Virus record (IMG/VR): IMGVR_UViG_3300005577_000013
Location: 1-43,478 of that record
DNA: 43,478 nucleotides
Source: a virus
Direction: 5' to 3' (one strand)
In this document: one piece after another, positions 1-18,783 of the stretch
Position numbering within the stretch: position 1 is the first letter of the stretch
How the letters are laid out: every line of letters begins with the position of its first letter
The notes under the pieces: generated by a model
The model's input: the letters and a program-made list of their open reading frames with translations, nothing else
Told to the model about the DNA's origin: nothing
Database searches by the model: none
Made by a program: the position numbers and the translations under genes

Positions 1-60
1 GCTCGCGGGCCAGCACCGTCCTTACCTGGTCGAGGTGGTTCCTGTAGATGTGCGCGTCGC
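1..60. repeat. 60-bp direct repeat of the window's last 60 bases
   Basis: Bases 1-60 are identical to 43419-43478. The repeat lies inside the ThyA-family gene, and the reading frame is continuous only when the two copies are merged. That indicates a circular or circularly permuted molecule with an assembly overlap, not a true 60-bp genomic terminal repeat. Confidence 0.97.
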
Positions 61-772
61 CGAGCTGGAAGACCAGGCGGCCGGGCGACATGAGCGTCTC
101 CTTGGCCAGCAATCGCTGCAGCAGGGCGTAGCCGGCGACGTCGAACGGCAGTCCGAGGAACAGGTCCACCGAACGCATGTCGACGCGCAGGTCGAGGTAC
201 AGGTCGTTCATGAGGCCCTGCCTGACGTAGCACTGGAACAGCACGTGGCACGGCGGCAGGCACATCTGGTCCAGCTCGCCGGGGTTCCAGGCCGTGACCA
301 GGTGGCGCCGGCCAAACGGATCGGCACTCAGGTCGTGTACCAGGCCCTTGAGCTGATCAGTGATCTTGAAGGCAGGCGCGTTGCCAGACAGCGCTTCCTT
401 CAGGCCGTCACCATGCGGCAGCGGAAGGTACGACCGCCACCGCCGCCACTGCACGCCGTAGATGCGGCCGAGCCATCCGGCAGCCTGCTTGTCGCCCCTG
501 GACGTCCAGTAGTCGGCCGTGCCGTTGCCGTCCCAGATCGAACAGCCGACCGAGTGGAACTGGTCGAGCGTGTCGAACCCGTGGAGGAAGGCTGACAGCT
601 CCGCCTTGACGCTTTCGAAGAACAGCTTCTTCGTGGTGAAGGCCGGGAACGATGTGCTGTTGTCGAACACCACCTGTGCCCCGAACACCGACAGCGTGCC
701 GACGCCGGTGCGGTCAGGCCGCTCCTCCCCGTGCTCCAGCACCCGCCGGAGGATCTTGTGCCATTCCTTCAT
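1..772 (-). CDS. Thymidylate synthase / dCMP hydroxymethylase family enzyme (5' part; continues at 43294-43478)
   Basis: This is the start and most of a 298-residue enzyme that crosses the circle junction; the remainder lies at 43294-43478. The ATG at 772 overlaps the upstream stop as ATGA. ThyA-family landmarks are visible: RTGVGT near the N-terminus, the nucleophile C175 in LPPCHVLFQ, MRSVD (phosphate Arg), GDAHIYRNH and a C-terminal HPAVKAPMNV. The residue that pairs with the pyrimidine ring, Asn177 in E. coli ThyA (LPFN), is Asp here (D211 in LPFD). T4 dCMP hydroxymethylase has Asp179 at this position. Family membership is certain. dCMP rather than dUMP as substrate, and methyl or hydroxymethyl transfer to C5 from methylene-tetrahydrofolate, are inferences. 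No gene symbol is given because thyA may be wrong. Confidence 0.93.
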   Translation of the reverse strand, partial: MKEWHKILRRVLEHGEERPDRTGVGTLSVFGAQVVFDNSTSFPAFTTKKLFFESVKAELSAFLHGFDTLDQFHSVGCSIWDGNGTADYWTSRGDKQAAGWLGRIYGVQWRRWRSYLPLPHGDGLKEALSGNAPAFKITDQLKGLVHDLSADPFGRRHLVTAWNPGELDQMCLPPCHVLFQCYVRQGLMNDLYLDLRVDMRSVDLFLGLPFDVAGYALLQRLLAKETLMSPGRLVFQLGDAHIYRNHLDQVRTVLARE

Positions 773-1871: not shown

Positions 1872-2690
1872 TCAGGCGATGGCGCCCTCGGATTTCAGCT
1901 TGTTGCGATACCAGGCGATCGAGGCCGCAGAGGTCTTGGCGCCAGGGAACTTCTTGAGGGCTTGCGACAGCACGTCCTCATTGGAGATCTCGCCCTTCTT
2001 GGCCTTGATCAGGTCCATGCAGAAAGCGCCGATGCCGGGGCCGCGGGGCTTGACGTCGCCTGCCACCTTGTCCGCTTTCTTGAACAGGGCCTTGCTGGCG
2101 CTGGTCTTCGTCTCGCCGGCCTTGGGACGCTTCGACTTTTCCGAGGCCTCGGGCTTCTCGGCCTTCAGCTTTGCCAGACGCTTCTCGGCGGCCTCGACGC
2201 TCTTGGCCTTGTTCTCCTTCTGCTTTTCCGTCGGCTGGACGGTCTCGCCGCCCAAGGCGGCGACGCGCTGCATTGCCTCGGCCTTGGACTTGAACTTCTT
2301 GACCTCGGGCTTGCCGTTGGCCTTGGCCAGGTCGTTGTACACGGCCATCAGCTGGTCGAGCGTCATGGCGTTGAGGTCGGTGGTCTTCACGGTGGACATG
2401 AGATAGGTCTCCAAAAGGATGTTGACGACGCCGTCTTCCGGCAGGTAAGCGCTGCGGTTGAGCTCGAGGAGACGCAGCGCCGCCGCCCCCACGGGTTTTT
2501 CCAGTGCGGACGGGAACATCCGCTCGAACGACTGCGTCCCTCCCTCGTTCTTGACGAGGCCGCTGGGACTGAACGAGAGCCACCGAGACTTCTCACGTCT
2601 GACGTCGCGATGGTACTCTAAAGCGATCCGACGTTGACCGTCGATGCGCAATCGCGCACTCGGCACGTCGACTTCCGCGGAAGTTTCCAC
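1872..2690 (-). CDS. Phage protein with AYN and GIGA...WYR domains; probable internal second start
   Basis: The open frame encodes 272 residues from a GTG at 2690 that has AGGAG 8 bases upstream. An internal ATG at 2399 (residue 98) has its own GGAG 9 bases upstream and begins MSTVKTTDLNAMTLDQLMAVYNDLAK, which looks like a natural N-terminus. A full-length protein and a 175-aa short form may both be made. From residue 98 the order is a helical AVYNDLAKANGKPVKKF-type domain, a Lys/Glu/Ala-rich linker (about 150-205), and a C-terminal GIGA...WYRNKLKSEG domain shared with the next gene. Residues 1-97 have no recognised family. No enzyme motif is seen; a DNA-associated role is only a guess. Confidence 0.7.
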   Translation of the reverse strand: METSAEVDVPSARLRIDGQRRIALEYHRDVRREKSRWLSFSPSGLVKNEGGTQSFERMFPSALEKPVGAAALRLLELNRSAYLPEDGVVNILLETYLMSTVKTTDLNAMTLDQLMAVYNDLAKANGKPEVKKFKSKAEAMQRVAALGGETVQPTEKQKENKAKSVEAAEKRLAKLKAEKPEASEKSKRPKAGETKTSASKALFKKADKVAGDVKPRGPGIGAFCMDLIKAKKGEISNEDVLSQALKKFPGAKTSAASIAWYRNKLKSEGAIA

Positions 2691-6769: not shown

Positions 6770-6988
6770 TCAATTCCTTTTGATGTCAGGGAGAGCGCTC
6801 ACGTAGGAAGCCTTAGTACTCCACAGAGCCCCACAGGCGAGGCACTTGCACAGGCTGTAATCGGAGTACTCGCCGCCACAATGCCTCAGCTTGGAGAAGG
6901 TAGAGTAATGCCGATTGCGTCGCAGCACCACCCATTTACGGGCGGACAACGTCACCTTCCGTTCGGGACATTGGCAGGCGGTGCTCAT
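6770..6988 (-). CDS. Small zinc-ribbon-like protein (72 aa)
   Basis: The start is the ATG at 6988, overlapping the DNA polymerase stop as ATGA. Any longer frame lies within the polymerase. Six cysteines occur as C5-x-C7, C37 and C47-x-C49-x2-C52 (LCKCLACGALW), spacing that suits one zinc site. The rest is basic (KWVVLRRNRHYSTFSKLRHCGG). Small Zn proteins translated directly after phage polymerases are often nucleic-acid binding or host-takeover factors. The role here is unknown. Confidence 0.75.
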   Translation of the reverse strand: MSTACQCPERKVTLSARKWVVLRRNRHYSTFSKLRHCGGEYSDYSLCKCLACGALWSTKASYVSALPDIKRN

Positions 6989-8949
6989 GCTGCGCTCCTG
7001 TAGAGAGACTTGTTGGCGGAGTACCGCGGCTCCTCGAACTTCTTCAGCCGGCCCCATGCGTCGCCCATCGAGGCCTCGCTGAGCATCGGCACATCGAACT
7101 CGATGGAGGCCATGACATCGCGGAGCAGCAGGAGCTCGTTCTTCATGGCCTTAGTCGGCGCGGAGATGTTGATCTCGTCGTGGACCGTGACGCGGAAGCG
7201 GCCGTGCTTCTTGGCCTCGTGATAGCGGATGATGGCCTCCTTCGTGCAGTCGGCCGACGAGCCCTGGACCAGGTAGTTGATGAGCTTGTATTCGAACGAC
7301 TGGACGCGGCCGTATTCGCTGGAGTACTTCGGCGGCTCAACGTAGTACTGCCTACCGCCCCAGGTGCGCATCGCCTCGCCGGACTTGCCAATCGCGGTCA
7401 GGTCATCGATGAGCGCCTTCAGGCCAGGGAACATGCCGAGGTAGGCCGCCTTGAGCCGCTTCGCCGTGGCGACGTCGACGCCCAGTCGTTCGGCCAGCGA
7501 GCCCAAGCCCATGCCGTAGATCAGCCCGAAGCCGATGGTCTTCATCTGGTCACGGTTGGTGTCGATGCCCTCGTTCAGCATCATCTTCGTGGCCGTGACA
7601 TGCACGTCCATGTACGGGTCTTCACGGTACTGCTCCAGCAGCTCGCCGTCCTCGAAGTGGCCGAGGACACGAAGCTCCTGCTGCGAGTAGTCCCGCTTTC
7701 CCCACACGTGACCCTTGTCGGGTAGCGTGTAGTTCCGCACCACCGGTAGCTCTGGCAAGCCGGCATAGGCCGGGTGCTCGTACTTGCCGGCCTTCTCCAT
7801 GAAGGGCTTGGGCACGTTCATGAACCGTGACGCCGACAGCCGTCCCGTCCGCGCGCCGGCGCCCTGCTGCCGCACCTGGTTCCACGAAGGGTGCACCCGC
7901 GCCTGGCCGGTCTTGAGCGCAAACTCCTCCGACTCTTTGAGCCAGGGCAGCAGGAAGGTGTTCTTGGCGGTGGCCAGCTTCGACCGGTACTGCAGCACGC
8001 CGAGCACCTTCTTGTCCTTCACGGCGCCGATGATGGAGTCCTTGGCCGTGGAGCGCTTACCGGTGGGCGTTAGCATGAAACCGTCGGGGTCGGCCTTCTT
8101 CGCCTTGATCAGGGCGTTCGCCAGTTCCTCGTCGGAGTCCACGTTCAGGGTCTTGGCCTTCAGCATGCGGCGCAGCCAGTCGTCGGCCTGGTCCATCGCG
8201 CCGCCGGAGAACATTGACGGTTCCCCGAACTTCTCCGCGTCGCTGTAGGCGCCGTATTTCTTGGCGTCGGCCCGCAGCAAGGCGAGGTCGGTGGCGATGC
8301 CCTCCTTCTCATTCTCCATCAGCACCGGCAGCAGCCGCTGTTCACGCTGGTAGGCCTTCAGCATGCCTCGCTCCACCACCTCGGGATAGCAGTGGAGGAA
8401 CAGCTTCTTGGTACGCAGCGTGTCGCCGTTGGCGTACTTGCCGACCATCTTGCCCGGCGCCAGGTGGATGAACTCGCCGGCGTTCTTGCGGGTCTTGGGC
8501 ATCAGCTTCTGCGCGATGGCCCACTCGCGGATGGCGTCTTGCTCCTCGGGCTGCATGCCCAGCAAGTCCTCGGCCGCGCCCTTCAGGTCGAGCCGGTTGC
8601 TGTACGGGTCCACCAGGAAGAGCAGGTACATGGTCTCATGCACACGCTCCCAGGGGAGCATCGGCAGGCCGCACCGCTCGACCGCGACTCGCACGTCGAA
8701 CTTGGCATGGTGGCAAAGGATCGGCAGGCCGCCGGACCACACCTGCTTCAGGGCCCGGATGCCGTCCTCCCTGGTGCAGTTGTTCTCGCTCGGGTGGCCC
8801 CAGGCGTAATACTTGCCGCCGCGTTCCCCAGGGAGCATGATGGACACGCCGACCGGCTCCGGCGGATACGACGGTCCGTTCTCGATGGGCTTCGTCTCGA
8901 AGTCCACCACGGCCACGTCGGGGACCTTAACCTTTGACGATCGGGGCAT
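6985..8949 (-). CDS. Family A DNA polymerase with 3'-5' exonuclease (654 aa)
   Basis: The replicative polymerase. Exonuclease domain: Exo I VVDFETKP (D16, E18), Exo II CHHAKFD (D85) and Exo III YANGD (Y172, D176). Polymerase domain: motif A KRDYSQQELR (D420), motif B RDQMKTIGFGLIYG (R466, K470, F474, Y478), and motif C VTVHDEI (H590, D591, E592). All catalytic residues for proofreading and synthesis are present. There is no 5'-3' exonuclease domain, as usual for phage enzymes. Motif A has Gln where DYSQIELR is common. The ATG at 8949 has GGAG 7 bases upstream and overlaps the preceding gene by 23 bp. An in-frame ATG at 9000 lacks support. Confidence 0.97.
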   Translation of the reverse strand: MPRSSKVKVPDVAVVDFETKPIENGPSYPPEPVGVSIMLPGERGGKYYAWGHPSENNCTREDGIRALKQVWSGGLPILCHHAKFDVRVAVERCGLPMLPWERVHETMYLLFLVDPYSNRLDLKGAAEDLLGMQPEEQDAIREWAIAQKLMPKTRKNAGEFIHLAPGKMVGKYANGDTLRTKKLFLHCYPEVVERGMLKAYQREQRLLPVLMENEKEGIATDLALLRADAKKYGAYSDAEKFGEPSMFSGGAMDQADDWLRRMLKAKTLNVDSDEELANALIKAKKADPDGFMLTPTGKRSTAKDSIIGAVKDKKVLGVLQYRSKLATAKNTFLLPWLKESEEFALKTGQARVHPSWNQVRQQGAGARTGRLSASRFMNVPKPFMEKAGKYEHPAYAGLPELPVVRNYTLPDKGHVWGKRDYSQQELRVLGHFEDGELLEQYREDPYMDVHVTATKMMLNEGIDTNRDQMKTIGFGLIYGMGLGSLAERLGVDVATAKRLKAAYLGMFPGLKALIDDLTAIGKSGEAMRTWGGRQYYVEPPKYSSEYGRVQSFEYKLINYLVQGSSADCTKEAIIRYHEAKKHGRFRVTVHDEINISAPTKAMKNELLLLRDVMASIEFDVPMLSEASMGDAWGRLKKFEEPRYSANKSLYRSAA

Positions 8950-9199
8950 GACGCGACTCCACTGAGAGGCCGAGCGGCGGGTGGGTATGGCCCCACACAA
9001 ACAGCATGATCGGCTTGCCGGCCAGGATGCTGGCGATTTCCTCTTGGTCAGGCTGCCAGAAGGTCACCAGCCCTGGCTCGGGCCGGCCCTCGTCGCCAAA
9101 GTCCGTGCGGGTGATGAACAGCGGCGTGCACTCCTCGTGAGGCACGCCCGGCGGCGCCGGCAGGACGTCGTTGTTTGAGATGTGCTGGATGTTCTTCAT
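8927..9199 (-). CDS. Conserved small phage protein, HPPL motif (90 aa)
   Basis: Starts at the ATG at 9199, overlapping the upstream stop as ATGA. The pattern FWQPDQEEIASILAGKPIMLFVWGHTHPPLGLSVE resembles a small protein found in many phages next to replication genes (typically FWxPTPEELxxLNAGxxVxLxVxGxxHPPV). Its function is not known to me. It ends 23 bp inside the DNA polymerase gene, suggesting translational coupling to it. Confidence 0.78.
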   Translation of the reverse strand: MKNIQHISNNDVLPAPPGVPHEECTPLFITRTDFGDEGRPEPGLVTFWQPDQEEIASILAGKPIMLFVWGHTHPPLGLSVESRHAPIVKG

Positions 9200-9426
9200 A
9201 CCGCCGCTCCCTTGAGCAGCTCGGCCCGTTCGCGCTGGGCGCGCATCTTGTTGTACCTGGCATGGATGCGCAGCAGGTACTGGACCCGGCGCTTGCCGCC
9301 GCGCTCGAGGTTGAGCAGTGCCTGGGCGATGTCCTCCGGTGCGCCGCGAAGGAACTCGTTCAGTGTCGCCCAGCTCTCGAGGGCATCGGCGCAAGCCGCG
9401 TACTGGTCGGACTGTTTCTTGGCCAT
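9196..9426 (-). CDS. Small helical phage protein (76 aa)
   Basis: A highly charged, all-helical protein: an N-terminal acidic helix (YAACADALESWATLNEFLR) and a basic helix (KRRVQYLLRIHARYNKMRAQRERAELL). No known domain is recognised. The ATG at 9426 has a perfect GGAGG. It heads the polymerase cluster (this gene, the 90-aa gene, polymerase, Zn-ribbon protein), each coupled to the next by overlap. A polymerase accessory role is possible but purely contextual. Confidence 0.75.
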   Translation of the reverse strand: MAKKQSDQYAACADALESWATLNEFLRGAPEDIAQALLNLERGGKRRVQYLLRIHARYNKMRAQRERAELLKGAAV

Positions 9427-10662: not shown

Positions 10663-11244
10663 TCAGAGCTTGTTGACGGACAGCGACTTGGTGTTGAACT
10701 TGCCGACGCCGGGCACGACCTTGCCGTCGTCCCAGAGCGTCTTGATGTGGTCGGTGTTCAGCGCACGGCCGAGGATGGCAAAGGCCTCGTCGGGATTGGC
10801 GCCCTTGACCTTCTTGAGCCGGGCGTACTCGGCGACCACGTGGGCGTAGATCTTGGTCCAGTCGTCGGCCTGCGGCGCGACGCCCTTCTTGATCGACACG
10901 CGGACCAGCTTGCCGGAGACGCCGGTGGCGTCGGACGCAGGGAGCTGCTCGATGAGGTGTTCGCGGAGGATGGCTTCGTCGGCCTTGAAGCCTTCGACCT
11001 TATCCTTGATGGACCGCTCCACGTCAAGGCGAGACTCGCGGGTGGTGAAGTAGAGGTCGGCCGCGGCGGCGACGGTCTTCGGGATCTTGACCGGCTTGCG
11101 GGCAATCTTCCGATTCACAGCGGCCTTGCCAGAGGGCTTCTTGAGCAGAGCTTCGTCGACGACTCTCTCGAGCATCTTCGAGCCTGCTTTTGCAGCGGGG
11201 GAACGGGCGTACTTCTTTGCCGGGACGGCGGCTTTGGTGGCCAT
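10663..11244 (-). CDS. Conserved phage protein, Gam/Gp157-like pattern (193 aa)
   Basis: Residues 60-170 contain a long helix (TTRESRLDVERSIKDKVEGFKADEAILREHLIEQLP), then ATGVSGKLVRVSIKKGVAPQADDWTKIYAHV and a helical end. This helix-then-GKL(V/A)RV pattern recurs in phage proteins beside SSB-like and recombination genes. It resembles Gam/Gp157-type coiled-coil proteins, which bind DNA ends or recombinases, but I cannot assign it. The N-terminal 55 residues are Lys/Ala/Pro-rich. It is the first gene after the promoter at 11313-11349; the ATG at 11244 follows a leader of about 60 bases. Confidence 0.65.
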   Translation of the reverse strand: MATKAAVPAKKYARSPAAKAGSKMLERVVDEALLKKPSGKAAVNRKIARKPVKIPKTVAAAADLYFTTRESRLDVERSIKDKVEGFKADEAILREHLIEQLPASDATGVSGKLVRVSIKKGVAPQADDWTKIYAHVVAEYARLKKVKGANPDEAFAILGRALNTDHIKTLWDDGKVVPGVGKFNTKSLSVNKL

Positions 11245-11312: not shown

Positions 11313-11349
11313 ATATTAGCCGACAGTTTCCGGCTTGTAACCCAGCTGG
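11313..11349 (-). promoter_or_regulatory. Promoter with CCAGCTGG against the -35
   Basis: In leftward sense: CCAGCTGG palindrome (11349-11342), -35 GTTACA (11341-11336), a 17-bp spacer, and -10 TAATAT (11318-11313). It lies immediately after the ligase stop and drives the 193-aa, lipoprotein and SSB-like genes, perhaps on into the polymerase cluster. The architecture is the same as at 15807-15843, 18290-18326 and, rightward, 18747-18783. Confidence 0.7.
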
Positions 11350-11350
11350 C

Positions 11351-12265
11351 TCAGACGTCGAGCCGGATGCACTTGAAGGTGGGGTGGCGGGGCAGCCGAT
11401 CGGTGCCGTAGGGCATGTACTTGTAGGTGATGATCTTCCCCACGATGTCGCGCGGCTCCTGCCAGTAGTGCGCGGCCTCCGCCGCCGTCATCGTGCCCGT
11501 GGCCACCCTGATCTCGGCACGGGTGGAGAGGTCCATGCACACCAGGGTGCCGACCGCGCCGCTGGGCATCAGACCCTCCTTCGAGGTGGAGCGCTTGATG
11601 CCGCCGTCGCCGCGACGCACGGCCTCGTTGCCGTTCACCGAACCCTGCACCAGGTCGACGACCACGGCCTCTGCATCGTCCCATCGCTTGCACTTGAAAA
11701 TGGACGCCTCCTTGAGCGTGGCCCGGCCGAACTTGTACGGCGCGCGCGGGTCGCGGAGCATCATCCCTTCGTATCCGCTGTTGATGCAGCACAGCTCGTA
11801 CTCGGCCGCGTCCTTGGCGCTTCGCAGAATGCTCTGCGGCAGCGGCACGACGCAGATGCGACGGAGCCCTTTAGTGAACTCGTGCACACGTCTGGCCGCG
11901 TTGCCGAAACGCTGCTCAAAGGGCAGGTCAGCGCGACTGTAGTCGTCAAAGACGTACCAAGTGAACTCGGGCGATCCCTCGCGCGCCATCACGGCCTTCG
12001 TGCGCTTCAGGACGTTCTCGCCATTGGGCAGGCCCACCACGATCTCGCCGTCCAGGCCGTCCAGCCACCGGCCGGTCATCACCTTGTTCAGGTTGACGTT
12101 CGGGAACGGGCTCATGGTAGAGGTCCAGATCCTGCCGGCGTGGCCCATGCACCGCTGGCCGTCGATCTTTGGGCTGCCGAGCAGCGGGTAGTGCAGCGCC
12201 TCGAAGTCGGACACGGACTCGGTCGGTGCCTTCATCGGACGGATGACTTGGGTTGCAACGGTCAT
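11351..12265 (-). CDS. ATP-dependent DNA ligase (304 aa)
   Basis: Seals nicks during replication and recombination through a Lys-AMP intermediate. Motif I is SPKIDGQR (K33, D35, G36), motif III LDGEIVVG (E73), motif IIIa TWYVFDDY, motif IV YEGMMLRDP (E165, G166) and motif V FKCKRW (K190, K192). A C-terminal OB-fold domain with a C-terminal GKIITYKYMPYGT...PTFKCIRLDV follows. The size is typical of compact phage ligases. The ATG at 12265 overlaps the previous stop as ATGA and has GGAG 6 bases upstream. The longer open frame overlaps that gene and is not used. Confidence 0.95.
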   Translation of the reverse strand: MTVATQVIRPMKAPTESVSDFEALHYPLLGSPKIDGQRCMGHAGRIWTSTMSPFPNVNLNKVMTGRWLDGLDGEIVVGLPNGENVLKRTKAVMAREGSPEFTWYVFDDYSRADLPFEQRFGNAARRVHEFTKGLRRICVVPLPQSILRSAKDAAEYELCCINSGYEGMMLRDPRAPYKFGRATLKEASIFKCKRWDDAEAVVVDLVQGSVNGNEAVRRGDGGIKRSTSKEGLMPSGAVGTLVCMDLSTRAEIRVATGTMTAAEAAHYWQEPRDIVGKIITYKYMPYGTDRLPRHPTFKCIRLDV

Positions 12266-12567
12266 GATGCGCTCCATGGCCGCACCGTGTGGTGGACCTG
12301 AGGGTAGCGGGCTGCAGACCAAGTCTGCAGGATCGGCGATGGCCAGTTGCTGCAGAGGGCCGCGGCAGCGACGTGCGTGAGGGTCGGTACGTGCTCCTCG
12401 AGGATGCGGCACTGCTGACGCTCGGCTTCTGTCATGACGGGCGGCACCGGCACGACGTAGGCTTGCATCAGGTTGACAAAGTCAGGCGCATTGTCAAGCC
12501 CGTTTTCTTTGGCCAGCCTCAGCATGGTCATAAAGCCGTGCGGCGGGTGAAGGTTGTCTGCTCTCAT
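12262..12567 (-). CDS. Hypothetical protein (101 aa)
   Basis: Unrecognised. The ATG at 12567 overlaps the upstream stop and its own stop overlaps the ligase start, both as ATGA. The protein is helical with a Pro/Val segment in the middle (AYVVPVPPVMTEAERQQCRILEEHV) and His/Trp-rich end. No catalytic motif is visible. Coupling suggests it is made in step with the ligase. Confidence 0.7.
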   Translation of the reverse strand: MRADNLHPPHGFMTMLRLAKENGLDNAPDFVNLMQAYVVPVPPVMTEAERQQCRILEEHVPTLTHVAAAALCSNWPSPILQTWSAARYPQVHHTVRPWSAS

Positions 12568-12782
12568 GGTTGAGCTCCTCGCAGCCTCTCGGCCACATAG
12601 TCCACCTGGTCTGCGTGGGCGCACGTCACCGCTGCCCACTTCTCAAGACGCTCCGAGGTGGCCGGCGTCGTCTCGATCTCCGTCGCCAAGAGGTTCAGAG
12701 CCGTGGCCTGCGCCCGCAGCGACCTGACCGCCTGTGCAGCCCTCTCGTCCAGCGCCTTGATGGCGCCATCGATGTTGGCCAC
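12564..12782 (-). CDS. Small helical hypothetical protein (72 aa)
   Basis: Starts with GTG at 12782, GGAGG 5 bases upstream, just after the exonuclease stop (one base between). Almost entirely helical with heptad-like spacing (IDGAIKALDERAAQAVRSLRAQATALNLLATEIE), so a small coiled-coil protein is likely. Function unknown. Confidence 0.7.
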   Translation of the reverse strand: MANIDGAIKALDERAAQAVRSLRAQATALNLLATEIETTPATSERLEKWAAVTCAHADQVDYVAERLRGAQP

Positions 12783-12783
12783 T

Positions 12784-13377
12784 TCAGCCTCCGCGGATGT
12801 GGCGGTAGATCGCCATCACGTGCTCGGCCTGGTTGCGGGCATCTTCGAGCGCGTTGTGCGCCGCGCCGGCCCGCATCGGCACCTTGGGCACCTTGGCGTT
12901 CAGCTTGCGGATGGTGCGCAGGCTGTGGTTGTTCCAGAACTTCCAGGGCAGCGTGCGGTTGGCCAGCCCGGCGGCGTGCTCGAGGATGACGAAGTCGAAC
13001 TCCGGCCCGTTGGACCAGACCTCGGTCTTGCCCTTCGTCGTGCTGTCCTCGCGGCTCACGACGAACTTGGAGAACTCGTCCAGCACCTTGCCGATGCCTT
13101 TGGACTTCTTCACGTTGCCTGAGTCCGACAGCACCTGGCGGGCCTCGGCCGACTGCTTGCCCCACCAGGCCACGGTGTCGGGGTCGGCGGTCAGGCCCAA
13201 GTCGAGCTGCGACCTCTGGCTGGCCACCATGTAGAACTCGTCGGTGATCTCGAGCTTCACGGTGTCGAAGATCACCGCCCCCACGCTGAGGACTACGCAC
13301 CCGGGCTTCGTGCCCAGGGTTTCCAGGTCGAACATGACCTCGTAGTTGGCGGAACGTGCGATCGGCGGCTTGGGCAT
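12784..13377 (-). CDS. DnaQ-like 3'-5' exonuclease, Rv2179c-like (197 aa)
   Basis: The first Exo motif is VMFDLETLG (D17, E19). Later come the AWWGKQSAEARQVL segment, EVWSNGPEFDFVILEHA (Exo II with its Asp), WNNHSLRTIRKL, and Exo III AHNALEDARNQAEH (His and Asp). The order and the WW-QS block match the Rv2179c-like 3'-5' exoribonuclease/DexA group of DEDDh nucleases found in many phages. Likely jobs are degrading host nucleic acid or trimming ends; RNA versus DNA preference is not evident. A hairpin terminator lies immediately upstream (13401-13431), though no promoter is obvious between it and this gene. Confidence 0.88.
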   Translation of the reverse strand: MPKPPIARSANYEVMFDLETLGTKPGCVVLSVGAVIFDTVKLEITDEFYMVASQRSQLDLGLTADPDTVAWWGKQSAEARQVLSDSGNVKKSKGIGKVLDEFSKFVVSREDSTTKGKTEVWSNGPEFDFVILEHAAGLANRTLPWKFWNNHSLRTIRKLNAKVPKVPMRAGAAHNALEDARNQAEHVMAIYRHIRGG

Positions 13378-13400
13378 GTCGCCCTCCTTCTGTATTGGAA

Positions 13401-13431
13401 ATGAAAAGGCCCGCGCCTGGTAGCGCGGGCC
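13401..13431 (-). terminator. Rho-independent terminator, leftward
   Basis: GGCCCGCGC (13408-13416) and GCGCGGGCC (13423-13431) form a perfect 9-bp stem with a 6-base loop. In leftward sense it is followed by TTTTCATTT. It ends the transcript carrying the 63-aa gene and the tRNA, at least partly, before the exonuclease-ligase genes. Confidence 0.8.
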
Positions 13432-13459
13432 GGCAGCGAAGTCCCTCGGGACGCGTCGG

Positions 13460-13651
13460 TCAGGCCGGCGCGGCGATGGCCTCGTTCACGGCACGCTTGA
13501 TGTCGTACTGCTGGCGCACCGCGATGCCTTCGGGCCAGGCCACGTTGGCCACGGCCTTCTTCACGCGGGCACGTTCCGTCTTCAGCGCGGCCGCGACCGC
13601 CTTGTCCACCTTCGCCTGGGTCTTGTCGACCGCTTCTTCCTTCTTCGCCAT
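13460..13651 (-). CDS. Small Lys/Ala-rich protein (63 aa)
   Basis: The ATG at 13651 (MAKKEEAVDKTQAKVDKAVAA) is preceded by GGAG. Longer in-frame sequence runs into the tRNA and is not coding. Helical and highly charged, with alternating Lys/Ala repeats like a short coiled coil, then YDIKRAVNEAIAAPA. Unknown function; the composition is reminiscent of small DNA-associated proteins. Confidence 0.7.
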   Translation of the reverse strand: MAKKEEAVDKTQAKVDKAVAAALKTERARVKKAVANVAWPEGIAVRQQYDIKRAVNEAIAAPA

Positions 13652-13719
13652 GGTGTGCTCCTTTGCATTGGCGGACCGTCCTTCGGCACCGTGCCGGGCG
13701 TTCGGTCTTGGCCCTATCT

Positions 13720-13801
13720 TGGTGATCACGGCAGGATTCGAACCTGCAAACGGCGTTCCCCTGTGGGGATTAGCCGTGCCTTGCCATTCAGCCACGTGAT
13801 C
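13720..13801 (-). tRNA. tRNA with encoded CCA and an abnormal anticodon arm
   Basis: Leftward, the acceptor GATCACG pairs with CGTGATC, followed by discriminator A and an encoded CCA. The D-arm (GCT...GGC with GG in the loop and A14) and T-arm (GCAGG-TTCGAAT-CCTGC) are canonical. The anticodon region is not: ACGGC pairs with GCCGT around an 18-base loop, inside which TCCCC and GGGGA can pair around ACA. No placement gives a 5-bp stem with a 7-base loop and U33, so I assign no amino acid. Total length is 82 nt including CCA. It may be a tRNA with an insertion, a decoy, or a pseudogene whose ends are under selection. Confidence 0.8.
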
Positions 13802-13806
13802 TGCGT

Positions 13807-14082
13807 TCAGTCGGGCGCGTTGCCTTCGTCGTGCTGCGCCTGGTCCAGGTCCTGCCGCGTCTCTTCGTCGACGGCTTCCTGCACGGCGGTCGGCTTCTCG
13901 ATCTCGTACATGCTGATGATCCCGCCTTCGGACCCGCCGTAGATCTCCAGGGTGACTTCTTCGTCGTCCTTGAGGATGATCACGCCGGGTTCCGTGCTGG
14001 ACGGGTTGGCCCGTGTGATGCGCAGGTTGTGCATGCTGGGCAGTTTCTTGATCGTCACCTCAGTGACCGTATGGATCGTCAT
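13807..14082 (-). CDS. Hypothetical acidic protein (91 aa)
   Basis: The ATG at 14082 has GGAG 7 bases upstream. The sequence is beta-rich in the first two thirds (VTEVTIKKLPSMHNLRI, GVIILKDDEEVTLEIYGG) with a very acidic helical tail (EEEDQ-rich, ending EGNAPD). No family recognised. It lies between the two tRNA-type elements. Confidence 0.7.
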   Translation of the reverse strand: MTIHTVTEVTIKKLPSMHNLRITRANPSSTEPGVIILKDDEEVTLEIYGGSEGGIISMYEIEKPTAVQEAVDEETRQDLDQAQHDEGNAPD

Positions 14083-14104
14083 GTCGTTCTCCAGTTTGAT
14101 CTAA

Positions 14105-14163
14105 CGCGGGGTCGTCGGCATCGAACCGACGGCGGCCACCTCGCCCCTACGCGAGACCCCGCG
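14105..14163 (-). ncRNA. tRNA-like element lacking a normal anticodon arm
   Basis: In leftward sense CGCGGGGTC pairs perfectly with GACCCCGCG (9 bp) like an extended acceptor stem. Directly 5' of the 3' strand is a perfect T-arm, GTCGG-TTCGATG-CCGAC. Between acceptor and T-arm there are only a TCGC/GCGA hairpin (D-arm-like) and about ten bases that can form at most a 3-bp stem. No CCA is encoded. It is a degenerate tRNA or tRNA mimic. The rest of the gap up to 14207 is C/G-rich with no feature I can support. Confidence 0.6.
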
Positions 14164-14207
14164 GCAGGCCGGCCGGTGACCCCACCAACCCCACCTGCCT
14201 GCTCGGT

Positions 14208-14423
14208 TCAGCCCTTGATGGCGTGTTCGTTGAGGAACTCGATGACGCCGGCCTTGCTGTAGGCGATCTCAAGCTCGTCGTGCTTGACCTCCTTGGCCTT
14301 GATGCCCAGGTCGTCGACCAGCGTCGCCTTGTGCTCGCGCACCTGGGCCATGCTGCCGGCCCACCGGACTTCCTTGCCGCCGGTCTTGGGGTTCGGCGCC
14401 ACCACCTTGTAGATGTTGCTCAT
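14208..14423 (-). CDS. Hypothetical protein (71 aa)
   Basis: The ATG at 14423 (MSNIYKVVAPNPKTGGKEVRW) overlaps the stop of the J-domain gene as ATGA. Compact alpha/beta sequence with an N-terminal strand, a helix (MAQVREHKATLVDDLGI) and a C-terminal helix (AGVIEFLNEHAI). No known family. Coupled to the J-domain protein. Confidence 0.72.
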   Translation of the reverse strand: MSNIYKVVAPNPKTGGKEVRWAGSMAQVREHKATLVDDLGIKAKEVKHDELEIAYSKAGVIEFLNEHAIKG

Positions 14424-14785
14424 GTCTTTCTCACTCTCTTGTCGGAGCGGCCGACCCCGTTGCAGGCGCCGCAGATGTGGGCCACGCGGACCCGGATGCT
14501 CTTCTGCTCGTACGTGCAGCCCTTGCCCTTGCAAGGTTCGCACACCGGCCGCAGGAGGGCCACTTCTTTGTCGTAGGCCGCACGGCGCTTGACGTCGCCG
14601 AGCACGGCCCAGGCCTGGCTGGCCATGGCGAAGCTGTCGGCCCGCGCCTTCTGCTCCTGCTCGTTCAGCCCGACGTTCCGGTCGGGATGCAGCTTTGAGG
14701 CCTTGGCCTTCCAGGCGTCCTTGACCTCCTCCTGGGTGGAGGACCTATGGACGCCGAGCCACTCGTAATGGGTGAGGCGGCTCAC
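14420..14785 (-). CDS. J-domain (DnaJ-like) protein with zinc motifs (121 aa)
   Basis: Residues 1-73 are a J-domain: THYEWLGV helix I, EEVKDAWKAKASKLHPDRN with the HPD triad (H33-P34-D35), helix III ending RRAAYDKE. Then two Zn motifs, C82-EP-C85-KGKG and C105-GA-C108-NGVG, as in a DnaJ zinc finger reduced to one pair. J-domains stimulate the host DnaK ATPase, so this protein probably recruits the host chaperone to a phage process such as replication-complex remodelling. The ATG at 14785 overlaps the upstream stop. The upstream gene ends in a matching DnaJ-type Zn motif. Confidence 0.9.
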   Translation of the reverse strand: MSRLTHYEWLGVHRSSTQEEVKDAWKAKASKLHPDRNVGLNEQEQKARADSFAMASQAWAVLGDVKRRAAYDKEVALLRPVCEPCKGKGCTYEQKSIRVRVAHICGACNGVGRSDKRVRKT

Positions 14786-15756
14786 GACCCATCTCCGTCA
14801 CAGTCGGGGCACTCGATCTCCTCTTCCACGTTCAGGTGGTTGAGCGTCAGCACCTTGCCCGTGGCGTTGCAGGTCGTGCAGCCTGGCAGCGCATCCGCCG
14901 GAGGACGCGGGCCGCCATTCTTTGCAGCGGTCTCAAACTCTTTGATCTCCTCGCAGTCGCACACACCAGTCTCTTCAGCCGGGTGCACCACGTTGCAGGC
15001 AGGATGGTGGCCATGCAGGAAGGCAGCCAATCCTGCAGTTACGCGTGCCTCGGCCTCCTTGGTCGGATGCTGCAGGTCAGGGTCCTTGTGCCCAGTCATG
15101 CAGTACAGCGACTTGGGCTCGCCGCACTGAGTGCACTGGTCGTTGTCGCCGCTGACTGTGCGGACCGCATGCATCGGGCCGTCTGCAGGCGACGCAACCC
15201 AGCGCGTCTCGACCAGCCTGCCGTCCACCATGCGCATGTCCAGGCCGGCGCTGTCGCCCAGCAGCACCATCTTCCTCTCGGTGCGCGCACCTTCGGCCCG
15301 GGTGATCATGCCCTTCAGCCGCTCCTTTCCCTCGAGCGTCTCCACCAGGTGCTCGAGCGGAGGCACGAAGGCCTCGGCACCGAGGTGGGCGTAATCCATG
15401 TTGCGCCGCCGCGAGAGGAACTCTTCAACCGCGTGCGTGCCCTGGTCGTCCATCATGTCGGCGCCCGGCACGTCGCGGAAGGACAGGCCGTCGGCAGCGA
15501 CCACGGGCGGTGGCGTCCAGCCCAGCGACACGAGAGCCCTGTGCAGCTCGTCTTCGATCTTGGAGTTCAGGTTGTAGACGCTGGTGATGCCCATCGTCTT
15601 CACCACGACTGCGAGGCCCATCGCCTCGGCGCAGATCTTCGCGTAGCCGCGCCACTTCTCCTTCAACGCCTCGGGCTTGTCGTCCCAGGTAGTGACCACT
15701 TCGTATACGGCGGCTCTCAATGCCTGGGCGCCCTTGTCTATCTGTTCGGGGGTCAT
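14782..15756 (-). CDS. Unknown protein with C-terminal DnaJ-type zinc motif (324 aa)
   Basis: No whole-length family recognised. Residues 1-80 are helical, 120-200 mixed. From about 205 there are scattered Cys pairs (CTQCGEPKSLYC; ACNVVH...CDCEE), and the end has GCTTCNATG...ECPDCDGDG, two CxxCxGxG repeats exactly as in the DnaJ zinc finger. The next gene is a J-domain protein with the same motif, so the two may form one chaperone-like complex. The ATG at 15756 has AGGAG 8 bases upstream. It is the first gene after the promoter at 15807-15843. Confidence 0.75.
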   Translation of the reverse strand: MTPEQIDKGAQALRAAVYEVVTTWDDKPEALKEKWRGYAKICAEAMGLAVVVKTMGITSVYNLNSKIEDELHRALVSLGWTPPPVVAADGLSFRDVPGADMMDDQGTHAVEEFLSRRRNMDYAHLGAEAFVPPLEHLVETLEGKERLKGMITRAEGARTERKMVLLGDSAGLDMRMVDGRLVETRWVASPADGPMHAVRTVSGDNDQCTQCGEPKSLYCMTGHKDPDLQHPTKEAEARVTAGLAAFLHGHHPACNVVHPAEETGVCDCEEIKEFETAAKNGGPRPPADALPGCTTCNATGKVLTLNHLNVEEEIECPDCDGDGS

Positions 15757-15806
15757 GTCGTGTTCTCCTGTCGTCGCTCAAGCGGCCGTGCCTGAACGTC
15801 GAACGG

Positions 15807-15843
15807 ATTTAAGCGCGCCGTCCGAGCGGCGTAAACCAGCTGG
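15807..15843 (-). promoter_or_regulatory. Promoter with CCAGCTGG against the -35
   Basis: In leftward sense: CCAGCTGG (15843-15836), -35 TTTACG (15835-15830), a 17-bp spacer, and -10 TTAAAT (15812-15807). It sits just after the primase-helicase stop and would drive the 324-aa gene, J-domain gene and the tRNA region. Confidence 0.68.
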
Positions 15844-15856
15844 CGCTCGATCGACG

Positions 15857-17989
15857 TTAGCCGAACTTCTTGGCCTTGGCGGAGCACCGGGTGGCTGCGT
15901 AGTGCTCGGAGCACTTCGGGCCGGACTCCTTCAGCCACGTGTCGGCGTTTCGCACGACGAACAGCCTTTGCTGGCCCTTCGGCGTGTGCAGCGGCATGCC
16001 CTTGTACGCCTGCCCGAAGCCCGCCCGCTTCATCTCCCTCGAGACCGCCGACATCGTCACGCCCTTCCGCTCCTCCGGGTCGTACACCCGCAGCAGGTCG
16101 CGCGAGGACCACAGGTCGCCTGACAGCTTCGCGTCGCCGAGCACCAGCGTCTCGTCCGGCGACCGCTTCAGCCCGATGATCCACCCGCCCAGGGCAGAGC
16201 TCGAGTCCTCCGCCATCGCGCCTTTGGCCTCGGTCCACGGCGCCGGGTCGCTCGGCTCCATGTCGCCAAGGTCCAGCTCGAGCAGATGGTGGAACAGCGC
16301 TGCCTTCCCCTCGCCGTCCAGCCAGGCGAAGTACTCGGCCACCTGCGCCTTCGTCATCTTGGCTGAGGCCGGCACCTCCCACACGAAGTTCCGCCGGTTG
16401 TTGTCGTCCAGGAAGAAGGCGTCGGGCCGGTTCGAGGTGAACAGGTAGTTTAGCACGTCCCGCAGCTCGTACGAGGGCACGTACTTCTTGTCGATGCGGA
16501 TCTTCTCCTGGGTGATGATGACCTTGAGCCGCTCCGCGTGCTTCCGGTTCTCGTGGCCGGTCACGTCGTCGCCGAGCACGAACTGCTTGCCGATCACCCA
16601 CTCGTTGCGGCCGTCGCCGAGCTCCTTGTCGGTGAGCAGCGTGTAGTTCTGCCCATAGATCCGGCCCATGGTGGTGCCGATCAACGACTTGCCCGTGCCC
16701 TCCTCCGCGCCCCAGAGCAGGACGCAGCTGAACATCTTGACCCCGGGCCTCTGCAGCGGCATGGCCAGCCACCGCTCAAACCAGGCTGCCATCTCCGTAT
16801 CCGCACCAAACAGCCGCTTCAGGTGGTCACGCCACGGCTTGATGGACCCCTTCTTCGGTTCGCAGCCCCACCCGCGCCAGGTGTTGAGGCGCATGTCCTC
16901 GGTCACCTTGGGCAAGCCCGGCTCGTAGGCCATCGCGGCCAGCTCGTAGCGGTGCTCCCACTCCAGCCACGCCTGCGCCGCCTTCTTCTTGACCATCCGC
17001 TCCACCGGCGCGCCGTCCTTGGTGAAGCTCATGGTCACGTCGTGGTAGTGCCTGTTGGCGTACGCGTGGCCGGTGAAGTCGCTGGACCGCATCTGGAAGC
17101 CGTCCTCCATCCGCACCACGATGCCTGGGTCGCGGACGTAGGCCACCTCGGAGTTGAGGTCATGCAGCGCGGCGCTCGAGGCATAGGTCTTGGCTTCCGC
17201 CAGACACCCCAGCGCAGCCTCAGCCCCTTCGGCCACGATCATGTCGTCGATGCCCTGTTTCTCCCCGTCCTCGGAGGGCGGCACCTCGGCAATGCGCGGT
17301 ATCGCGCCCAGGGCTTGCAGCTCGCGGGCCAGCTCGTTGCGCGCCGCGATGACCATGTGGTTGGTGTGGGCGTCGCTGTCGTAGGCGATCACTACGTCCC
17401 GGTCCTTCCAATCGATGAGGTAGAAGTCCTGGATCAGGGGCAGCTTGCGCTTGTTGCTCTTGAACGAGTACACGCCACCCAGGCCGATGCAGGCCAGTCC
17501 CGCCTTGCAGACCGCGGCCGCCTTCTTCTCGCCCTCGGTGATCACGATCCCCGTCGTGACGTCCTTCGCTGCCTCCATCCAATCCACCTGCGGTGGGAAG
17601 TACAGCTCCGGCATGGTGTCTCCGGTCTGAACGTACCGCAAGGCCTTCTTCTCGGCCTTGACCTGCATGGAGGTGCGGGTGTCCTCGAGGTATCGCCAGC
17701 GACGAAACTTCGTCGGCTCGCCCTTGATGTCCAGGTAGGGTATGACGTAAGACTGGAATACTGGGAGACCGAGCAGCTGCAGCTCGTCCAGGTCGCCAGG
17801 CTGCAGGCGCATGGCAGCGGCGTCCTCCGGCCCCAGGCCCGAGCGCTTGAGGTCACCGAGCATAAGGTCGAGTAGAGGATCATCGGACTTCCTTCTCCGG
17901 ATCGGCGTCTTGATGGCGGGCTTCTTCGCCGGCTTGACTGCGTCGCTAGGGCCCGCGGCGGTCGGCTTGCGGGGCTTAGGACTTGGCAT
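15857..17989 (-). CDS. Primase-helicase: Toprim (DUF3854-like) plus SF3-type (DUF5906-like) helicase (710 aa)
   Basis: The replication initiator-type protein. After a Lys/Pro-rich N-terminus, residues 145-260 form a Toprim-like domain: IVITEGEKKA (E153), GLGGVYSF, VVIAYDSDAHTN (D204, D206), then GIDDMI. The C-terminal half is an SF3-like helicase: LLWGAEEGTGKSLIG (Walker A, 427-435), FVLGDDVTGHENRKHAERLKVIIT (Walker B and following), and YLFTSNRPDAFFLDDNNRRNFVWEV (sensor and Arg finger region). A winged-helix-like end with Cys pairs follows. The combination occurs in phages lacking a T7-type gp4. The ATG at 17989 overlaps the stop of the next upstream gene by 14 bp. Confidence 0.9.
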   Translation of the reverse strand: MPSPKPRKPTAAGPSDAVKPAKKPAIKTPIRRRKSDDPLLDLMLGDLKRSGLGPEDAAAMRLQPGDLDELQLLGLPVFQSYVIPYLDIKGEPTKFRRWRYLEDTRTSMQVKAEKKALRYVQTGDTMPELYFPPQVDWMEAAKDVTTGIVITEGEKKAAAVCKAGLACIGLGGVYSFKSNKRKLPLIQDFYLIDWKDRDVVIAYDSDAHTNHMVIAARNELARELQALGAIPRIAEVPPSEDGEKQGIDDMIVAEGAEAALGCLAEAKTYASSAALHDLNSEVAYVRDPGIVVRMEDGFQMRSSDFTGHAYANRHYHDVTMSFTKDGAPVERMVKKKAAQAWLEWEHRYELAAMAYEPGLPKVTEDMRLNTWRGWGCEPKKGSIKPWRDHLKRLFGADTEMAAWFERWLAMPLQRPGVKMFSCVLLWGAEEGTGKSLIGTTMGRIYGQNYTLLTDKELGDGRNEWVIGKQFVLGDDVTGHENRKHAERLKVIITQEKIRIDKKYVPSYELRDVLNYLFTSNRPDAFFLDDNNRRNFVWEVPASAKMTKAQVAEYFAWLDGEGKAALFHHLLELDLGDMEPSDPAPWTEAKGAMAEDSSSALGGWIIGLKRSPDETLVLGDAKLSGDLWSSRDLLRVYDPEERKGVTMSAVSREMKRAGFGQAYKGMPLHTPKGQQRLFVVRNADTWLKESGPKCSEHYAATRCSAKAKKFG

Positions 17990-18260
17990 TCTTGAAGGCC
18001 TCCAGCTGTGACTCGACGTGCTTGGAGTAATGCTCCAATGCGGCTGTGATGAAGGCGGACTTGGAGCGGTACCCCTTCGGCCTACGCTCGTCCAGCCATG
18101 CGGCCGCGAACGCGGCGCCTCGCGACCTGGCCAGGTCCATGCCGCGGCCGCCGATGCAGGGGTCCTGCATCGCCTTCATGCACGCGGCATTGGCCTCGGC
18201 CATCAGTCGGTCGGCCTTGGCCAATACCTCCTCGGGCGCGGAAAAGCATACTGTCGACAT
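17976..18260 (-). CDS. First leftward gene; possible ribbon-helix-helix protein (94 aa)
   Basis: The ATG at 18260 has AGGAG 6 bases upstream and lies about 25 bases after the predicted transcription start. An in-frame upstream ATG at 18290 falls in the promoter and is rejected. The N-terminus STVCFSAPEEVLAKADRLMAEA looks like the strand and first helix of a ribbon-helix-helix repressor, and GYRSKSAFITAALEHYSKH looks like its turn and second helix. They are separated by about 40 extra residues. It could be a regulator of the promoters that share CCAGCTGG, but the long insertion makes this tentative. It overlaps the primase-helicase start. Confidence 0.75.
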   Translation of the reverse strand: MSTVCFSAPEEVLAKADRLMAEANAACMKAMQDPCIGGRGMDLARSRGAAFAAAWLDERRPKGYRSKSAFITAALEHYSKHVESQLEAFKNAKS

Positions 18261-18289
18261 CTTGTGCTCCTCTCGGTCGGAAGGCTGCA

Positions 18290-18326
18290 ATCGTACTTTC
18301 GGCCGATTTCAATGTAAACCAGTCGG
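18290..18326 (-). promoter_or_regulatory. Main leftward promoter
   Basis: In leftward sense: CCGACTGG (18326-18319, a 6/8 match to CCAGCTGG), -35 TTTACA (18318-18313), a 17-bp spacer, and -10 TACGAT (18295-18290). The TTTACA box differs from TTGACA at one base. It reads into the 94-aa gene and the primase-helicase. Confidence 0.75.
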
Positions 18327-18386
18327 TGCTCGGAGACACTCTGCACGTAGAGCGCAGCCCGAGGCGCAGAGAGACAAAGGCAAGAG

Positions 18387-18401
18387 AATCAAGCACTTAG
18401 G
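18387..18401 (+). repeat. Left arm of a 15-bp perfect inverted repeat
   Basis: AATCAAGCACTTAGG. Its exact reverse complement is at 18656-18670. The arms are 254 bp apart and enclose the AT-rich core. Confidence 0.97.
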
Positions 18402-18655
18402 TCCGGATTTCTACGCGCCTTCATCTGCACATCAGTGTCCAGCCTTTATAGACCGAGGAGTATCTGTATTAACTTATCTTGCACATATCAATCTATATGT
18501 AGAATAGTAGAAGAGTAAAGAATGAATCCTAACTCGTTGATTTCATTGGATTTTTCGCCTCTTCGAAAATTTATTTTCCCAGCCAACATGTGCAGAGAAC
18601 GGCTCAATTGAGTAGTAATTCGACGCCATCGAAAGAGGCCCAGGCGGGAGATCAC

Positions 18656-18670
18656 CCTAAGTGCTTGATT
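18656..18670 (-). repeat. Right arm of the 15-bp perfect inverted repeat
   Basis: CCTAAGTGCTTGATT, the exact reverse complement of 18387-18401. It is immediately followed by the compound dyad at 18675-18704. Confidence 0.97.
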
Positions 18671-18674
18671 TACC

Positions 18675-18704
18675 TCCGCAATAATCCAGCTGGTAAGTTG
18701 CGGA
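18675..18704. promoter_or_regulatory. 30-bp compound dyad centred on CCAGCTGG
   Basis: TCCGCAA, 4 bases, CCAGCTGG, 4 bases, TTGCGGA: the outer heptamers are perfect reverse complements, the inner octamer is a perfect palindrome, and both share one centre. The same octamer abuts the -35 of the phage promoters, but here neither side has a good -35/-10 pair at the usual spacing. It therefore looks like a protein-binding site rather than a promoter. Confidence 0.7.
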
Positions 18705-18746
18705 AATTGAGGCTTCCGCCGAATCCGTCGTGATTCCGGGCCATTT

Positions 18747-18783
18747 CGAGCTGGGTTACAAGGTCCGGGCACGAAGGCAGAAT
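18747..18783 (+). promoter_or_regulatory. Main rightward (structural-gene) promoter
   Basis: CGAGCTGG (18747-18754, a 7/8 match to CCAGCTGG), -35 GTTACA (18755-18760), a 17-bp spacer, and -10 CAGAAT (18778-18783). Transcription would begin at about 18789-18792, at or next to the ATG of the first structural gene, predicting a leaderless mRNA. Confidence 0.62.

Follow-up and report, generated by a model that had tools for sequence, protein, structure and literature searches.

The subject of this analysis is a set of four putative promoters in a virus genome, the IMG/VR record IMGVR_UViG_3300005577_000013, a linear sequence of 43,478 bases that is called the window here. The four sites look like sigma70-type promoters. 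Our reading, which we regard as probable, is that they are promoters for the host's sigma70 that have been respelled for DNA with a modified cytosine, a -35 box (G)TTTAC(A/G) replacing TTGACA. The class spans the phages that share the replication module of this virus, and what is conserved in it is a -35 box in which T replaces G at position 3, together with a 17-bp spacing; the GC-rich octamer that adjoins the box in the window is not conserved. The TTTAC spelling recurs in unrelated phages with a synthase homologue of the deoxycytidine monophosphate (dCMP) type and is missing or rare in T4-like phages that are without such a gene.

Leftward genes of the window include a helicase, exonucleases, a PolA-type polymerase, a ligase, a DnaJ-domain protein and a primase; rightward from 18792 lie the structural genes (terminase, portal, capsid, tape measure and tail). 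The four sites are distributed between the two sets as follows.

P1, 11313 to 11349, minus strand: CCAGCTGG at 11349-11342, -35 box GTTACA at 11341-11336, N17, -10 box TAATAT at 11318-11313; upstream of a gene for a 193-amino-acid protein (10663-11244), an SSB-like gene and PolA.
P2, 15807 to 15843, minus strand: CCAGCTGG at 15843-15836, -35 box TTTACG at 15835-15830, N17, -10 box TTAAAT at 15812-15807; upstream of a gene for a 324-amino-acid protein (14782-15756).
P3, 18290 to 18326, minus strand: CCGACTGG at 18326-18319, -35 box TTTACA at 18318-18313, N17, -10 box TACGAT at 18295-18290; upstream of a gene for a 94-amino-acid protein and the primase.
P4, 18747 to 18783, plus strand: CGAGCTGG at 18747-18754, -35 box GTTACA at 18755-18760, N17, -10 box CAGAAT at 18778-18783; upstream of the structural genes.

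All four are present with the positions, sequences and 17-bp spacers given in the initial annotation, all lie between called genes, and its view that a single promoter family with this spacing serves both the leftward early and the rightward structural modules is borne out. Noncoding sequence here amounts to 2,518 bases by our own gene caller and is only approximate, because that caller is a simple codon-usage script. The -10 box of P4 ends 8 bp before the ATG, and its transcript would be almost leaderless.

The pattern [GT]TTAC[AG]-N17-NNNNAT has exactly four matches in the 43,478 bp, both strands included; these are P1 to P4, all noncoding. The longer CTGG[GT]TTAC[AG]-N21-AT likewise has four (0.0000 expected from 300 resamplings of noncoding sequence), but since both patterns were taken from the sites themselves, the counts are only descriptive. 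An independent check is a weight matrix built from 76 promoters of relatives, with the window left out. It ranks P3 first in the window (20.8), P1 third (10.5), P2 17th (4.7) and P4 29th (2.0); the best values in 20 shuffled sequences are about 10. By this comparison P3 and P1 are supported from outside the window, P2 and P4 only weakly so. In architecture, spacing and -10 box the sites resemble the canonical sigma70 promoter TTGACA-N17-TATAAT, with -35 and -10 hexamers 17 bp apart at four intergenic locations. The difference is at position 3 of the -35 box, which is G in the canonical promoter and T in the class formed by the window and its relatives. A strict TTGACA/TATAAT scan is passed by P3 only, and TTGAC is found 0 times in the gaps between the window's genes. 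P2 and P3 carry TTTAC itself; P1 and P4 carry a GTTAC variant, found also once each in L168 and L169, the nearest relatives of the window by primase (51-52% identity). The initial annotation had written the box down correctly as (G/T)TTAC(A/G), while the replacement of G by T at position 3 went unremarked.

Is this spelling peculiar to one genome? A megablast search gave no close DNA relatives of the window, and a single-primase pattern search of IMG/VR gave no close relatives either; relatives were gathered by way of TerL, the capsid protein and an alignment of four primases. The nearest annotated phages are Stenotrophomonas phage AXL3, Pseudoxanthomonas phage PW916 and the uncultured siphovirus MW202621, which have the same gene layout and share with the window the following two proteins.

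15857 to 17989, minus strand: primase (DUF3854/DUF5906), the marker of the module common to AXL3, PW916 and MW202621, 39-40% identical to theirs.
6985 to 8949, minus strand: DNA polymerase I-type protein, 42-43% identical to those of the same three phages.

The primase-alignment sample consists of 80 IMG/VR loci, plus fuller genomes. A census was taken of every hexamer standing 17 bp before TANNNT in 777 de-duplicated upstream gaps of relatives, again with the window left out. TTTACA comes top by count against expectation (75, with 0.47 expected), followed by TTTACG (18), TGTACA (14) and TTTACT (12), whereas TTGACA occurs at this distance in none of the 777 gaps. The spacing peaks at 17 bp only, weakly at 18, with a small extra peak of 12 at 12 bp. 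Among the position-3 variants in the gaps of 12 genomes, TTT is found 52 times, TTG 0, TTC 1 and TTA 0, each with 0.25-0.35 expected, and the TTTAC[AG] pattern has 54 noncoding matches versus 1 coding. Upstream of the box the relatives' consensus is A-rich, with A at -9, -8 and -5, T at -2 and G at -1 (TG before TTTACA). A second sample of 80 loci, drawn by the dCMP-type gene, gives TTTACA 51 times (0.24 expected) and TTGACA 0 times; the primase and dCMP-gene samples overlap in contigs (e.g. L220, L314), and genomes within the family are non-independent. For relatives by structural genes, a first count at 16-18 bp without de-duplication gave TTGAC 17 and TTTAC 7; de-duplicated at 17 bp, these shrink to 4 and 2, and thus there is no strong promoter class in that set.

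Three genes, found together in all of the 12 genomes, point to the chemistry of the DNA.

2 to 772, minus strand: thymidylate-synthase homologue, truncated by the end of the window, a predicted dCMP (hydroxy)methylase; the translation used in searches is 2-769, one codon less than the called start.
42017 to 42547, minus strand: dCMP deaminase orthologue, clustering with the AXL3 dCMP deaminase in 12 of 12 genomes.
42550 to 43257, minus strand: MazG-like nucleotide pyrophosphohydrolase, assigned by phrog_671 and by ortholog cluster.

Thymidylate synthase owes its specificity for deoxyuridine monophosphate to an asparagine (Asn). At that position the phage homologues have aspartate (Asp), within PYDVF or PYDAF in relatives and LPFDV in the window (dvagyall versus NIASYAIL), so that the window's protein would be of the dCMP type. 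In the Lactobacillus casei enzyme the same Asn-to-Asp change reportedly yields a dCMP methylase. The best match of the AXL3 homologue in the PDB is a CMP 5-hydroxymethylase. Of 37 restriction enzymes only 2 cut the DNA of AXL3, and the sites of both consist of A and T alone; the authors of that study concluded that an alteration of G or C is possible (PMC7504290). Together with the Asp residue and the PDB match, these restriction data make it very likely that in the module phages, as in T4, a 5-substituted cytosine takes the place of cytosine. A modified thymine was also considered for the Asp-type phages, an idea that stemmed from the label deoxyuridylate hydroxymethyltransferase on a PW916 gene. 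It was rejected on the same three grounds, and further since a 5-hydroxymethyldeoxyuridine (5-hmdU) DNA kinase, an enzyme that marks thymine hypermodification, is found in 0 of 9 Asp-type genomes or phages, the window included, versus 7 of 7 Asn-type genomes tested.

Promoter spelling follows this residue, with exceptions. The 12 genomes and 16 more that bear the primase were sorted into 17 Asp-type and 11 Asn-type; in some of the latter the residue was taken from the protein sequence (GAN...H motif), the profile alignment being gapped there. The Asp-type genomes have 93 T[TG]TAC promoters (74 + 19) and no TTGAC; the Asn-type have 11 and 1. At least two T[TG]TAC promoters are present in 16 of 17 Asp-type versus 3 of 11 Asn-type genomes (Fisher p 4e-4, for genomes that are not independent). 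G024, the only Asp-type genome without a match, has two sites TTTACA-N18-CATAAT, which fall beyond the -10 pattern used.

The T4-like phages, which have most of their biology in common but differ in whether they possess the dCMP enzyme, offer a comparison outside the module. The TTTAC -35 box of T4 early promoters is known from older literature and was recomputed here, with TTTAC plus TGTAC counted against TTGAC in gaps at 16-18 bp spacing. The five phages with a second synthase homologue show TTTAC-type boxes exclusively: T4 32:0, RB69 43:0, 44RR 32:0, Acj9 32:0 and Ac42 32:0, in total 171:0. A second homologue is absent from RB43, KVP40, RB49, 133 and S-PM2, and in Aeh1 there is a weak 63-residue match under the cut-off. 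The T4-like phages without a dCMP-type gene lean the other way: RB43 3:16, KVP40 5:20, RB49 0:30, Aeh1 8:26 and S-PM2 1:11, in total 17:103. Acinetobacter phage 133 (L554), at 12:0, ran contrary to this first sorting. Its only thymidylate synthase homologue is Asp-type (LGKPFD) and otherwise synthase-like, as in the window, and represents a natural version of the change said to convert the synthase into a dCMP methylase. With phage 133 included, six T4-like phages with dCMP-type genes give 183:0. For pf16, a T4-like phage reported to be without hydroxymethylase, the promoter consensus of its authors is TTGACA (PMC5587285).

Other unrelated phages with an Asp-type homologue include Agathobaculum phage AB434P2 (TTTAC 10, TTGAC 1) and podovirus MW202510 (TTTAC 6, TTGAC 0 in 20 kb). 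The AB434P2 (L557) synthase homologue is reported with one in-frame TGA. T5 has 4:4, with TTGCT at 23, and Montesquieu, apparently Asn-type, has TTTAC 1 and TTGAC 0. Pelagibacter phage HTVC200P, which has a 45% relative of the dCMP-type gene, shows no TTTAC excess genome-wide (3/6 versus control 5/5); since it is an Autographivirus by its record, it was not used as evidence either way.

How close are the promoters of the window to those of known systems? With T4-like early promoters they share the TTTAC -35 box, the 17-bp spacing, TANNNT, the lack of TTGAC and a dCMP-type synthase homologue in the phage. The early-strand promoters of T4 and RB69 also have G at -1 (70/89) and A at -5 (71/89) before the -35 box, as in the siphovirus family; in the window G stands at -1 in four of four promoters, and the A-rich part is replaced by the GC-rich octamer. 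The differences are that the genomes are unrelated, that the upstream sequence is GC-rich and CCAGCTGG-like in the window and A-rich in T4, that two of the four -35 boxes in the window are GTTACA, and that DNA modification in the window is predicted. AXL3 and PW916 have the same module, gene order and TTTAC[AG]-N17/18-TANNNT before early genes; unlike the window they have no CCAGCTGG, and their rightward promoter, judged by eye, is TTCTCA-N17-TAGAGT. T4 middle promoters resemble those of the window as phage promoters with an altered -35 region on modified DNA (predicted for the window). According to PMC2988021, the MotA box has its centre at -30 and depends on MotA/AsiA, whereas the box in the window is at -35 spacing.

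A mechanism can be proposed along the following lines. Host RNA polymerase with its normal sigma factor would read these promoters on phage DNA whose cytosines carry a carbon-5 group, which the Asp-type synthase homologue would make together with the dCMP deaminase and the pyrophosphohydrolase. The base pair at position 3 of the -35 box is read by sigma region 4 in the major groove. In TTGACA the G at position 3 (-33) would pair with a modified C, whose group would project into the groove just where region 4 reads; a change from G:C to T:A would remove the obstacle. C is kept at position 5 and G is allowed at position 2 (TGTAC), which argues for an effect tied to one position, not for avoidance of G and C across the box. 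Some published work on T4 is consistent with this. PMC6070864 and PMC2988021 describe early promoters as used by host polymerase alone, with no phage factor, and the latter describes the modification as a bulky major-groove group that obscures polymerase contacts, cytosine modification opposite G silencing the GATT middle promoters. A literature search for TTTAC -35 boxes tied to modified cytosine found none; subscription papers were outside its reach, and this is no proof of absence.

Several observations weigh against respelling for a modified cytosine. P2 and P4 score low with the family matrix, and GTTACA, the box of P1 and P4 and so of two of the four promoters, occurs once in the 777 gaps. 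The chemistry of the window DNA is predicted only, and its synthase homologue is truncated at the contig end. Among the Asn-type genomes, G018 is an exception with its four TTTACA promoters, and Aeh1, which has no full second homologue, has 8 TTTAC beside its 26 TTGAC. Phage 133 was placed in the Asp group post hoc, after its residue had been inspected. The Asp-type phage DSL-LC01 shows 0 TTTAC and 0 TTGAC in 60 kb with 19 gaps. From the introduction of a 2024 paper (PMC11550810), 5-hydroxymethylcytosine (hmC) is tolerated by the Escherichia coli polymerase in vitro and 5-glucosyl-hmC templates are still transcribed. Finally, in 80 Asn-type loci, many of them AT-rich and marine-looking, TTTACT is found 41 times (1.43 expected) and TTGAC 2 times versus 1.0 expected.

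This last finding led to rejection of a clean Asp/Asn split of promoter spelling, as Asn-type phages of another lineage use TTTACT. A 5-hmdU DNA kinase is present in the three marine-looking Asn-type genomes tested (G026, G028, G030; 3/3). Use of TTTACT by Asn-type, kinase-bearing phages means that cytosine modification is not the sole route to T at position 3. In L425, L438, L413 and other marine-looking Asn-type loci there are repeated promoters of the form CC-TTTACT-TT...TATGCT, several per 20 kb, and L438 also has a TET-associated glycosyltransferase domain. The module primase was not found in ten such genomes, in a search made without a positive control. Genes for 7-deazaguanine were tried as an explanation for this lineage and rejected, QueC being found in 0 of 12 records, of which six belong to this lineage. 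The 5-hmdU kinase, and with it thymine hypermodification, is reported to prefer TG and TC steps (PMC6449724); the first of these occurs in TTGAC, and both strands of TTTACT are free of either step. A wider generalization can be put forward tentatively, at rather less than even odds: that base-modified phages follow a general promoter code in which position 3 of the -35 box, where sigma makes contact, is kept free of modified bases. Under such a code, phages predicted to be C-modified would use TTTACA/G or TGTACA, those predicted to be T-hypermodified TTTACT, and unmodified relatives TTGACA.

Could a phage protein read the TTTAC box instead? A small sigma, a sigma-appropriating protein or an activator might be encoded in the shared module and inherited with the promoter. 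Several small proteins of unknown function are present in 12 of 12 genomes; one example, a 76-amino-acid protein at 9196-9426 (minus strand) that adjoins PolA, has orthologs in all 12 and is without a Pfam or PHROG match. By eye, the C-terminal domain of two families resembles a helix-turn-helix, an impression and not a database match. Such a factor has to be reconciled with the same spelling in the T4-like phages, AB434P2 and MW202510; a search, again without positive control, gave no module primase in phage 133, AB434P2 or MW202510. Moreover, the spelling among T4-like phages varies with the presence of the dCMP-type gene, and T4 early promoters, according to the papers cited above, work without a factor of this kind. 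We consider a phage factor unlikely.

A dimeric regulator acting on the palindrome CCAGCTGG beside the -35 box and controlling all four promoters, as the initial annotation had proposed, is more doubtful still. Its counts of octamer matches, 8/8, 8/8, 6/8 and 7/8 at P1 to P4, are correct, and the octamer abuts the -35 box at all four sites with 29 of 32 letters matching. The halves are unequally kept, the near half (CTGG) matching in 16 of 16 letters and the far half in 13 of 16. G directly before the -35 box is general, being present in 54 of 81 promoters of relatives, besides the T4 and RB69 promoters counted above. A dimeric operator is unlikely because the CTGG half is invariant and the far half is not, and because the last G belongs to the general promoter; in addition, most dimeric helix-turn-helix sites are longer than eight base pairs. 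Taken alone, the octamer is not rare in the window and is not enriched over its whole length, with four exact copies versus 1.63 expected (at least four in 31 of 300 resamplings). Outside the promoters there is one exact copy in coding sequence (18834) and one in an intergenic dyad (18686). The initial annotation named equal frequency of the octamer within coding sequence as a refutation; this does not apply to the exact copies, three of four being noncoding, but 51 copies at one mismatch or fewer are scattered over the window.

Relatives have the same promoter without the octamer, and it was rejected as a conserved feature. None is seen before the relatives' boxes in a list, read by eye, of 132 unique TTT promoters (the window contributes two of these), and L168 and L169 have no exact CCAGCTGG. 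An L168 promoter, GCAGG followed by GTTACA-N17-TATAAT, precedes a tRNA-like stretch, and the L169 version has TATGAT. In 166 sequences (2.03 Mb) there are six exact matches to CTGG[GT]TTAC[AG] outside the window and its copies L001 and L002, with no promoter-like setting visible at any of the six. The eight bases before the -35 box are nevertheless alike at all four promoters, and thus something keeps them alike. Most likely CTGG followed by [GT]TTAC[AG] constitutes a GC-rich extended -35 element local to the lineage of the window, and not an operator. The one place where the octamer could centre an operator is a dyad in the same intergenic region as P4, which counts for the regulator model to that extent.

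18675 to 18704, no strand assigned: 30-bp imperfect dyad TCCGCAA...CCAGCTGG...TTGCGGA, upstream of P4.

A palindrome, TTGTGATCACAA, is found upstream of the rightward genes in AXL3 and PW916 (L166 1-203, L167 18099-19870), at a position comparable to that of the dyad.

That TTTAC was merely inherited or is host-driven, the hosts' housekeeping sigma preferring TTTACA with no link to modification, is very improbable, as T4 and RB69 differ completely from RB43 and RB49, all of them Escherichia phages by record, and 160 structural-relative loci have no TTTAC excess (2 versus 1.43 expected), even though TTTACA is a natural -35 variant, described for the lac promoter (PMC2613000).

Other features of the window include a further candidate promoter.

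18490 to 18519, minus strand: candidate leftward promoter, TTTACT, N18, TAGATT, in an AT-rich gap, second in the matrix ranking, without octamer and with weaker evidence.

AXL3 and PW916 have TTTACT-N17-TACTAT or TAGTAT 94-95 bp ahead of a leftward gene. A perfect 15-nucleotide inverted repeat, AATCAAGCACTTAGG, with arms at 18387-18401 and 18656-18670, flanks 254 bp of AT-rich sequence in a GC-rich genome and is a candidate replication origin. Within the leftward module a strong terminator-like hairpin of 10 pairs followed by TTTTCATTTC is present at 13431-13408 (minus strand); genes past it would require read-through or another promoter. ARAGORN predicts a tRNA-Cys at 13720-13801 (minus strand), with the anticodon ACA, odd for Cys. 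The proteins at 1591-1827 and 1872-2690 (minus strand) share a repeated C-terminal domain that is multi-copy in module phages and reads GKTNxEVWxxIKxxFxLDDSKKHYPTWYRxxMKRKG in relatives (PHROG 17205, unknown function).

The respelled -35 box suggests that viruses rewrite their start signals to keep altered DNA readable for the host enzyme. If this is true, the chemistry of phage DNA could be predicted from how the -35 box is spelled, also in uncultured phages, and on modified DNA the host polymerase would distinguish phage promoters from those of the host with no phage protein involved. Modification, usually viewed only as armour against restriction, would also dictate how promoters are written. 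The T4 early -35 box, an old oddity, would then exemplify a rule with more than one origin.

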